A stretch of 64,000 bases of DNA from Intestinimonas butyriciproducens (GTDB lineage Bacteria > Bacillota > Clostridia > Oscillospirales > Butyricicoccaceae), in assembly GCF_016901775.1 (NCBI RefSeq), contig NZ_JACJKW010000009.1, positions 1 to 64,000 of the forward strand. Direction: 5' to 3'. The notes under the pieces were generated by a model that was given only the letters and a program-made list of their open reading frames with translations, was not told the DNA's origin and did no database searches. This document shows positions 15,815-49,083 of the stretch, piece by piece. The position numbers and the translations under genes are program-made. Position 1 is the stretch's first letter. Every line of letters begins with the position of its first letter.

Positions 15815-16050
15815 GAAAAAACACCCCCATTTCCAGGGTGATTGAAATGGTTGGAAGCCTATATAGTAAAAAACTGTTGGTCCTTCGTTTATCAATTCGT
15901 AAAAACCGGCGACCTGTGCGTCGGTTTTTACACTTCTCAAGGGGCCAGTGTACGCCAAAGGCGTGCATGCAGCCCCTTGCAAAAACTCGGAAAAATGGCC
16001 TTTGCCACTTTTTCGACACAAAAAACACCCCGGTTCTGGGGTGTTTTTTT
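15815..16050 (+). repeat. Structured terminator-flanked repeat, copy A
   Basis: Between two related hairpins (15815-15840 and 16018-16050, both beginning AAAAAACACCCC) lies an element with three stems in plus orientation: H1 15899-15931, H2 15939-15978 and H3 15987-16016. H1 reads GTAAAAACCG/CGGTTTTTAC, while copies B and C have a GCAAAAAGC stem. H2 is identical to copy B. The flanking hairpins have diverged from each other. The adjoining SIR2-type gene is on the minus strand, so this copy has the opposite orientation relative to its gene from copies B, C and D. Confidence 0.8.
16018..16050 (-). terminator. Terminator of the SIR2-type gene
   Basis: A short CACCCC/GGGGTG hairpin with T residues on both sides begins within the stop codon of the gene. 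It is also the right flank of repeat copy A. Confidence 0.8.
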
Positions 16051-27477: not shown

Positions 27478-27601
27478 AAAAGCCGCCCCAAAAGGCGGCT
27501 TTTCAGATTGTCGATAAACCGATGTGGCCAGAGGAAAGGGGTTTCTTTACCTCTTATTGATTCGCAAAAACTCGAAAAAGCCGCCCCAAAAGGCGGCTTT
27601 T
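27478..27601 (+). repeat. Structured terminator-flanked repeat, copy D (internally deleted)
   Basis: A 26-bp hairpin (AAAAGCCGCCCC... symmetrical) at 27478-27503 is repeated exactly at 27576-27601. The 72 bp between begin CAGATTGTCG, as in copy B (CAGACTGTCG), and run to ATTCGCAAAAACTCGA. There the part before H1 joins directly to the part before H3, so H1 and H2 are missing. The junction falls on the GCAAAAA that occurs at both sites in the full copies, as expected for a deletion between short direct repeats. Either hairpin can end the upstream GTPase-NYN gene and the convergent small gene. Confidence 0.8.
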
Positions 27602-45437: not shown

Positions 45438-45513
45438 GGGAGCATAGCTCAGCTGGGAGAGCATCTGCCTTACAAGCAGAGGGTCACAGGTTCGAGCCCT
45501 GTTGTTCCCACCA
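45438..45513 (+). tRNA. tRNA-Val (anticodon TAC)
   Basis: A 76-nt cloverleaf with acceptor GGGAGCA/TGTTCCC (one G-T pair), anticodon loop CTTACAA, GGTTCGAGCC T-loop region and encoded CCA. Confidence 0.95.
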
Positions 45514-45519
45514 ATTTAT

Positions 45520-45596
45520 GGCCGTGTAGTTCAGTTGGTTAGAACGCTAGCCTGTCACGCTAGAGGTCGACGGTTCGAGCCCGTTCACGGTCGCCA
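45520..45596 (+). tRNA. tRNA-Asp (anticodon GTC)
   Basis: A 77-nt cloverleaf with acceptor GGCCGTG/CACGGTC, anticodon loop CTGTCAC and encoded CCA. GTC tRNAs are queuosine targets, and a GluQ-RS gene lies at 50619. Confidence 0.95.
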
Positions 45597-45600
45597 ATTT

Positions 45601-45676
45601 GCCTCTGTAGCTCAGTTGGTAGAGCAGGGGACTGAAAATCCCCGTGTCGCTGGTTCGATTCCGGCCGGAGGCACCA
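45601..45676 (+). tRNA. tRNA-Phe (anticodon GAA)
   Basis: A 76-nt cloverleaf with acceptor GCCTCTG/CGGAGGC, anticodon loop CTGAAAA and encoded CCA. Confidence 0.95.
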
Positions 45677-45679
45677 CTT

Positions 45680-45755
45680 GCGGATGTAGCTCATCTGGTA
45701 GAGCGCCACCTTGCCAAGGTGGAGGTAGCGAGTTCGAGCCTCGTCATCCGCTCCA
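45680..45755 (+). tRNA. tRNA-Gly (anticodon GCC)
   Basis: A 76-nt cloverleaf with acceptor GCGGATG/CATCCGC, anticodon loop TTGCCAA and encoded CCA. Confidence 0.95.
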
Positions 45756-45757
45756 AA

Positions 45758-45792
45758 ATATGGCAGGAATGTGTTTTGCATTCCTGCCATAT
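45758..45792. repeat. Perfect 14-bp-arm hairpin between tRNA-Gly and tRNA-Cys
   Basis: ATATGGCAGGAATG (45758-45771) pairs perfectly with 45779-45792 around a 7-base loop. It has no T tract, so it is not an ordinary terminator; a processing site is possible. Confidence 0.75.
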
Positions 45793-45812
45793 ATCTAAAC
45801 TGTATATGGTAT

Positions 45813-45887
<75 letters not shown>

Positions 45888-48084: not shown

Positions 48085-48316
48085 AAAAAGGCCCTTTGGG
48101 GCCTTTTTCAGACTGTCGTAAAACATATCTGGCTAGGGGGAACTGTTGACCCTACCCTTTATCAATCCGCAAAAAGCTGCGACCTGTGCGTGGCTTTTTG
48201 CACTTCTCAAGGGGCCAGTGTACGCCAAAGGCGTGCATGCAGCCCCTTGCAAAAACTCGACAAAGTGGCTTTGCCACTTTGTCGACATGTTTAAAAAGGC
48301 CCTTTGGGGCCTTTTT
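48085..48316 (+). repeat. Structured terminator-flanked repeat, copy B (fullest copy)
   Basis: The rarA terminator core GGCCCTTTGGGGCC with its A and T runs (48085-48108) recurs exactly, 24 bp long, at 48293-48316. The 184 bp between hold a left part beginning CAGACTGTCG (shared with copy D), then stems H1 48169-48201, H2 48209-48248 and H3 48257-48285. H3 is a perfect 13-bp stem (TCGACAAAGTGGC, TTT loop). No reading frame fits the element. Confidence 0.85.
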
Positions 48317-48883: not shown

Positions 48884-48888
48884 AAAGG

Positions 48889-49083
48889 CCGCCCCTATGA
48901 CGGGGCGGCATAAATGGTCATCCGGCCATAATCAATTCGCAAAAAGCCGCGACCGGTGCGTGGCTTTTTGCACCTCTCAAGGGGCTAGTGTACGCAGAAG
49001 CGTGCACGCAGACCCTTGCAAAAACTCGACAAAGTGGCTTGAGCCACTTTGTCGGTCTTAGACCGCCCCTATGACGGGGCGGC
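48889..49083 (+). repeat. Structured terminator-flanked repeat, copy C
   Basis: The 21-bp hairpin CCGCCCCTATGACGGGGCGG(C) at 48889-48909 is repeated exactly at 49063-49083. The 153 bp between hold H1 48939-48971 (GCAAAAAGCC stem), H2 48979-49017 and H3 49026-49055. The H2 tip has lost one C-G pair (GC-AGAA-GC where A and B have GCC-AAA-GGC), so the stem stays paired. The left part is shorter than in B. The first flank ends the upstream gene, the second can end the convergent MATE gene. Confidence 0.85.

Follow-up and report, generated by a model that had tools for sequence, protein, structure and literature searches.

Miniature elements between duplicated terminator hairpins in Intestinimonas butyriciproducens and their probable mobilization by an IS1182-type transposase

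The window, that is, the whole 64,000-nucleotide stretch of Intestinimonas butyriciproducens DNA that was analyzed, contains four sites (A, B, C and D) in which a short element lies between two hairpins of the terminator type. Their features are the following:

48085–48108, + strand: site B, left copy of the target terminator hairpin (target-site duplication), 24/24 identical to 48293–48316
48109–48292, + strand: site B, miniature element between the hairpin copies, with CAGACTGTCG near its start (left end) and TGTCGACATG near its right end
48169–48201, + strand: site B, internal hairpin H1, 13 bp with a 7-nt loop and a conserved G.U pair; 98.8% of cells paired, two-sided changes in 5 of 13 pairs
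48208–48249, + strand: site B, internal hairpin H2 (helices 2 and 3); 95.3% and 97.7% paired, two-sided changes in 3 of 17 pairs
48257–48285, + strand: site B, hairpin H3, in the right terminal region; 95.2% paired, two-sided changes in 9 of 13 pairs; inverted match
48293–48316, + strand: site B, right terminator hairpin copy, 24/24 identical to 48085–48108
48886–48909, + strand: site C, left terminator hairpin copy, 23/24 identical to 49060–49083
48910–49059, + strand: site C, element with shortened left end, 90% identity to B over 125 columns
49060–49083, + strand: site C, right terminator hairpin copy, 23/24 identical to 48886–48909
27478–27503, + strand: site D, left terminator hairpin copy, 26/26 identical to 27576–27601
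27504–27575, + strand: site D, putative internally deleted element, left part retained and H1-H2-H3 gone, from sequence comparison
27576–27601, + strand: site D, right terminator hairpin copy, 26/26 identical to 27478–27503
15816–15840, + strand: site A, left hairpin copy, diverged, with a 12-bp exact run
15841–16019, + strand: site A, element, 89% identity to B over 148 columns
16020–16049, + strand: site A, right terminator hairpin copy, forming a diverged hairpin pair with 15816–15840

The flanking hairpin at site B has the sequence AAAAAGGCCCTTTGGGGCCTTTTT. The earlier note had proposed that each site carries its own terminator twice, and this pairing was recovered at B, C (where 21 bp match perfectly) and D, while at A the two hairpins have diverged and 12 bp is the longest exact run. 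The same note had ascribed one design to all four sites; hairpin pairs do flank the element at A, B, C and D, but D is without the hairpin core. Pairwise identity among the cores of the other three sites, A, B and C, is 83–90% over 125–148 columns. What D has in common with B is limited to some 70 bp on the left side (70% identity) and, as only this left part is kept and the hairpin core is absent, it looks like an internal deletion of the element, judging from the letters alone. Five clustered tRNA genes occupy positions 45438–45884 of the window on the + strand.

The core is not confined to these four sites. A DNA search of the own genome with positions 48100–48300, in which 40 of 91 candidates were scored, gave at least 42 matches. 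The final two are short inverted matches within copies, which leaves 40 copies. A covariance model built from 40 copies gave at least 87 matches (best 150 of 1,453 candidates scored), 76 of them at 72 bits or more and 11 below 40 bits; ten of these 11 weak matches overlap a listed copy on the opposite strand. Thus, at least 76 strong copies (≥72 bits) are present in the 2.58-Mb genome, in agreement with the repeat family that had been postulated from the window.

A comparison of the flanks showed that the likeness of the two flanks extends to most of the copies scored. Of 43 copies extracted, two were dropped because a flank was missing, and the best flank-to-flank alignment score of the remaining 41 had a median of 22; the 1,640 mismatched pairs gave a median of 6, with 11 as the 99% value and 17 as the maximum. 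The score exceeded the 99% value in 30 of the 41 copies, barely so at A (12), and stayed at or below it in the other 11. Site C is among the latter and represents a scoring miss, since its left end is deleted and the projected boundary was misplaced. Alike flanks pair within a locus and not across loci. The 3' end of an open reading frame faces the copy at a distance of 150 bp or less in 42 of the 43 copies and in 258 of 519 controls, a crude test in which spurious reverse-strand reading frames raise both counts.

Short TGTCG/CGACA sequences had been suggested as possible terminal inverted repeats, and consensus ends could indeed be recovered from the genome copies. The left-end consensus is CAGACTGTCGAAAAACC (39 ends read) and the right-end consensus, reading inward, is GAGCGTGTCGAAAAAGT (28 read); the right end carries TGTCGAAAAA and the terminal inverted repeats are imperfect. 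The ends were located by a loose CAGnnTGTC search, which biases the result toward that consensus.

These ends also occur in insertion sequences of relatives. PF13751 was found in 15 of the 87 family genomes, and genome G046 contains a complete IS (locus L060) with a 492-aa transposase, ends CAGTCTGTCGAAAAAG and CAGCCTGTCGAGAAAC and a 30-bp hairpin on each side. The transposase (P0001) scores 403.5 bits with the NCBIfam IS1182 model NF033551 (cut-off 270), in addition to matching PF13751, PF05598 and PF01609, and the IS shares the ends of the element (CAGnCTGTCGAAAAA). The left-end consensus of the element (39 ends) and that of the IS (16 ends of eight IS) agree in 16 of 17 positions, two of the 16 being only 50% conserved in the IS. 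The statement in the earlier note that no IS-like ends could be named has to be corrected, as the elements have terminal inverted repeats and these match IS1182-family IS of relatives. The motif TGTCGAA, inside the shared end CAGnCTGTCGAAAAA of element and IS, resembles the Spo0A box, probably by coincidence.

Homologues of P0001 (E 1e-40) are present in 19 of 295 genomes of the order, the own genome not among them. Flanking repeats were looked for at all 30 homologue loci, and the ends were examined at 20 of these. In twelve IS copies (from nine genomes, G046 included) both CAGnnTGTC-type ends and the flanks could be read; these copies are about 1.33–1.57 kb long, with one transposase gene enclosed by terminal inverted repeats. 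Four of the twelve (L222, L240, L246 and L249) represent the same IS inserted repeatedly in a single genome. A hairpin is found at both ends in 12/12. The two hairpins are identical in nine copies (seven genomes of seven genera), with lengths of 20, 23, 26, 27, 28, 30, 30, 31 and 34 bp, and L227 has the same 35-bp hairpin on both sides with 33/35 identical positions, so that 10/12 copies show the same hairpin twice. L222 and L224 carry two different hairpins. More distant homologues examined (e.g. L230, L231, L235, L243) showed no such ends or duplications, and ISCaa15, another member of the IS1182 family, is tabulated with 4-bp repeats (PMC3196728). Hairpin duplication is thus not a trait of the whole IS1182 family. 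In G644, the genome of L222, L240, L246 and L249, the transposase has one in-frame TGA in all five listed IS copies, which may mean that the copies are dead, that the codon is recoded or that another genetic code is used.

Orthologous sites without the element were sought in the relatives. The site B query matched 18 of the 87 family genomes, the own one included, several solely over the 36-nt H1 hairpin. In G053, the sole genome of the same genus, no element match was found; its matches to the flanks (68–98% identity) lie on scattered contigs and the flanks are rearranged, which prevented a clean comparison, and G053 was dropped as a source of empty sites for A–D. The family sample includes Agathobaculum, since G009 has a locus exactly in common with Ca. 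Agathobaculum merdipullorum; the genus is placed within Butyricicoccaceae in the NCBI taxonomy. When an Agathobaculum element with its flanks was used as query, matches were obtained in 25/25 Agathobaculum genomes, flanking genes included, and many of them span the element itself.

The clearest case is locus L136 (G011:C87, Ca. A. pullistercoris), where the element lies between two copies of AAAGCCGCCCGATCGGGCGGCTT. At the orthologous site of G025 the left flank aligns at 86% and the right flank at 81%, and what the two alignments have in common is exactly one 23-bp hairpin. The filled site of G011 thus has two identical hairpins, and the orthologous site of G025 has a single homologous one and no element. 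One similar hairpin is also seen in G013. In G008 and G017 an element follows the hairpin at this site, with no second hairpin seen, G008 continuing with other sequence and the G017 contig coming to an end. In addition, an IS-like end adjoins the same terminator in G023, at a contig end. From the comparison of L197, L198 and L200 with L136, this one terminator was seen to be occupied repeatedly: an element sits there in three genomes (G011, G008 and G017), the IS-like end in G023. This may correspond either to an old insertion or to a reused target.

The other comparison concerns L213 (A. desmolans, G003), where the element is bracketed by the doubled hairpin AAAATCCGCCTTTTGGGCGGATTT. The same neighbor genes are separated by spacers of 67–71 bp with one hairpin each in G019, G022 and G015, and by a 103-bp spacer with one hairpin and possible element remnants in G006. 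As the single hairpins do not align to the doubled hairpin of L213, this locus is weaker evidence for an empty site; among the empty sites, G025 alone has a hairpin whose homology to its doubled counterpart is plain. No element-free site with two hairpins was seen among the orthologous L136 and L213 sites examined. The L140 locus (A. desmolans) was rejected as an empty site because the matches to its two neighbor genes lie apart in most relatives; G014 has these genes close together, with a spacer that is too different. The expectation that empty sites would carry a single terminator was borne out in Agathobaculum relatives; the window loci A–D supplied none of these sites.

This evidence has to be weighed against a reverse order of events, in which the terminator was duplicated first, either in tandem or when similar terminators recombined, and its two copies trapped the element at a later time. 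Terminators duplicate easily, and the different end hairpins of L222 and L224 are a possible product of recombination between copies. Nevertheless, the G025 site has one hairpin, the flanks are alike within loci only and the same structure occurs in nine IS across seven genera, which makes a prior duplication highly improbable. Insertion into a terminator with duplication of the whole hairpin, as originally proposed, is in turn supported by the flank scores, the single hairpin of G025 and the matching IS.

We conclude that the elements are, with high likelihood, MITE-like non-autonomous transposons moved by an IS1182-family DDE transposase. The putative partner IS has the features expected of the IS1182 family (transposase, terminal inverted repeats and the palindromic insertion reported for some members), and the element has those expected of a MITE of this type in its shared ends, equal target duplication and empty site. 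An autonomous partner in the same genome was not found; IS of the partner type were found in other genera. Neither PF13751 (E 0.001) nor P0001 (E 1e-40) gave a match in the own genome, where only the IS1182 type of transposase was sought; a mover with matching ends is present in the relatives. A MITE can outlive its autonomous partner. The IS1182-type transposase is probably the mover; the donor is only inferred from relatives and is less certain for the lack of a partner, and the repeat is classed as MITE-like for the same reason. A high copy number, an intergenic position and an abundance of hairpins are also what would be expected of REP/BIME-like repeats mobilized by a Y1 (RAYT) transposase. 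Such elements are not known to have target duplications or DDE-type terminal inverted repeats, both of which are present here, and on these grounds we consider this origin very unlikely.

Element and IS both sit between two terminator hairpin copies of variable length. In a set of 36 perfect duplications (17 from the own genome, ten from Agathobaculum/Butyricicoccus and nine from IS) the length ranges from 18 to 37 bp and is correlated with hairpin length (r=0.80); these were picked as perfect and hairpin-forming and hence cannot alone prove hairpin targeting. In the nine IS the ends are placed 0–1 nt from the predicted hairpin feet. The target would be recognized through its shape rather than its sequence, and the transposase would join the ends at both feet of an extruded stem-loop, an inference for which there are no cruciform strand-transfer data. 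Because stems of any length bring their 5' feet together at the junction, the stretch duplicated would be the hairpin itself (18–37 bp) and not a fixed stagger; a fixed staggered cut, we infer, would not yield the observed length pattern. With a terminator left on each side insertions may be nearly harmless, and this might account for the high copy number. The dense repeat family of these Clostridia would then be explained as insertions that spare gene ends.

The transposase family, the targeting of palindromes and MITEs as such are already known. Other IS1182-family members are reported by Siguier et al., whom PMC4923244 and PMC5678879 both cite on this point, to target palindromes, and ISfinder is said to give direct repeats of 0–60 bp for the family; they are alike in family and palindromic target, and neither complete-hairpin duplication nor miniature companions are described for them in the literature searched. 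Short fixed target duplications are usual in bacterial MITEs, unlike the variable-length hairpin duplication and the interior H1 of the present element, the latter absent from the nine IS checked. Otherwise, bacterial MITEs are described as short, non-coding, multicopy and intergenic, with terminal inverted repeats and target duplication (PMC10969869). A close parallel is provided by IS1272 and TnSha1, IS1182-family members of staphylococci whose targets are inverted repeats with no consensus in sequence, in many cases the hairpins of terminators, and which delete or replace the stem-loop with no duplication (PMC4923244, PMC5678879). They share with the present IS the transposase family and the hairpin target, whereas here the hairpin is kept and doubled, and the present IS and elements are consequently not of the stem-loop replacement type. 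Hairpin duplication figures in that work merely as a hypothesis, drawn as pathway b of Fig 13, an alternative to the IS1272 outcome (PMC5678879). The claim in the earlier note that no parallel duplicates the hairpin thus has to be amended, given such close relatives and a duplication proposed as a possible outcome (PMC5678879, PMC4923244). Among the papers listed in literature searches, none was recognized as describing whole-hairpin duplication or this repeat. As far as these sources go, the duplication of a whole terminator hairpin by IS and miniature element, the single-hairpin empty site and the covarying interior are new. They provide natural repeated cases of an outcome which the IS1272 work consulted presents as no more than hypothetical (PMC5678879), and the contrast with a hairpin-deleting relative makes it directly testable whether and how a DDE transposase takes an extruded hairpin as target.

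The interior of the element forms a covarying set of hairpins. In the 40-copy alignment two-sided changes affect 17 of 43 pairs, with 47 cells observed against 8.4 in shuffles (0 of 500 shuffles reach 47), and the G.U pair of H1 is kept in 31 of 40 copies. Among 83 model matches in 79 H1-selected loci, 40 of 43 pairs show two-sided changes, a figure that overstates covariation because the alignment was fitted to the model and selected by H1. Hairpin-templated repair can create compensatory changes, and part of those seen here may come from it and not from selection; the retention of the G.U pair indicates that repair is not the whole cause. In Rfam searches only tRNAs reached the gathering score in the window, and in eight loci (E up to 5) all hits on the element were below gathering, none of them to a group II intron. 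These hits were read as chance matches, the best being RNAI in L136 (33.8 bits vs 47). A Gut-1 RNA match (L149:4574–4654, 49.1 bits vs a gathering score of 50) lies upstream of the H1-H2-H3 unit, outside the element.

The strong covariation of H1–H3, and the conserved G.U pair, which suggests that one strand works as RNA or single-stranded DNA, raise the question of whether the mover could be the structured RNA H1-H2-H3 itself, retro-copied into terminators like group IIC introns, with the IS1182-like ends being coincidental. Group IIC introns likewise home beside terminators. However, the element has a doubled hairpin and ends that match a DDE IS, equal duplications flank nine IS that lack the H1 motif, and Rfam gives no group II match in the window at gathering score or in the eight loci (E up to 5), so that the conserved ribozyme domains of these introns are not in evidence; we find such a mover scarcely credible. 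Compatible with transposition by IS1182-type ends, it is conceivable, albeit doubtful, that H1-H2-H3 is an undescribed structured nucleic acid (RNA or transposition ssDNA) captured as cargo by hairpin-duplicating ends of this type, and that its H1 (AAAAnnn-GCGACMTGTGCGT-nnnTTTT) recurs in several clostridial groups. If so, each insertion would set H1-H2-H3 in an insulated slot between two terminators.

A scan of genome contigs with the H1 pattern gave at least 79 stretches, many in Agathobaculum and Butyricicoccus. The stretches listed contain 81 H1 hits, five too close to an end and 76 assessable. A hairpin-forming direct repeat of 18–34 bp surrounds H1 in ten of the 76 loci (L091, L107, L130, L136–L140, L147 and L151), not all of them with recognizable ends; in most of the remaining loci listed no such repeat was found. 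In a class sample of 391 genomes, where the family had a single further representative, H1 was found 59 times in the own genome and once in each of two others, and viral contigs gave 0 matches. Single hits to the pattern in Rickettsiales, Chloroflexota, Phycisphaeraceae, Nitrosospira, Arenicella, Erysipelotrichaceae and Doudnabacteria were set aside as possibly due to chance; the four set-aside taxa that were re-tested gave one H1 hit each. Five assemblies of Candidatus Saccharibacteria have one H1-like hairpin per genome (L095, L097, L111, L153, L163), which in L097 adjoins the RNase P RNA gene, L111 being the orthologous place.

Without transposon ends, H1 is found at corresponding genomic sites of several Agathobaculum species (L033, L035, L036, L037, L038, L041; L112/L134/L148; L101/L122/L157; L128/L155). 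At these orthologous Agathobaculum sites H1 is nearly invariant while H2 and the flanks vary, as if it had a host function; at the first of them the motif is not retained in A. desmolans (L144). Finally, Oscillospiraceae MAGs contain neighboring repeated H1-H2-H3 units, five in L146:6937–7734 and two in L120:3763–4114, and from this adjacency the hairpin set appears to multiply there in another way.
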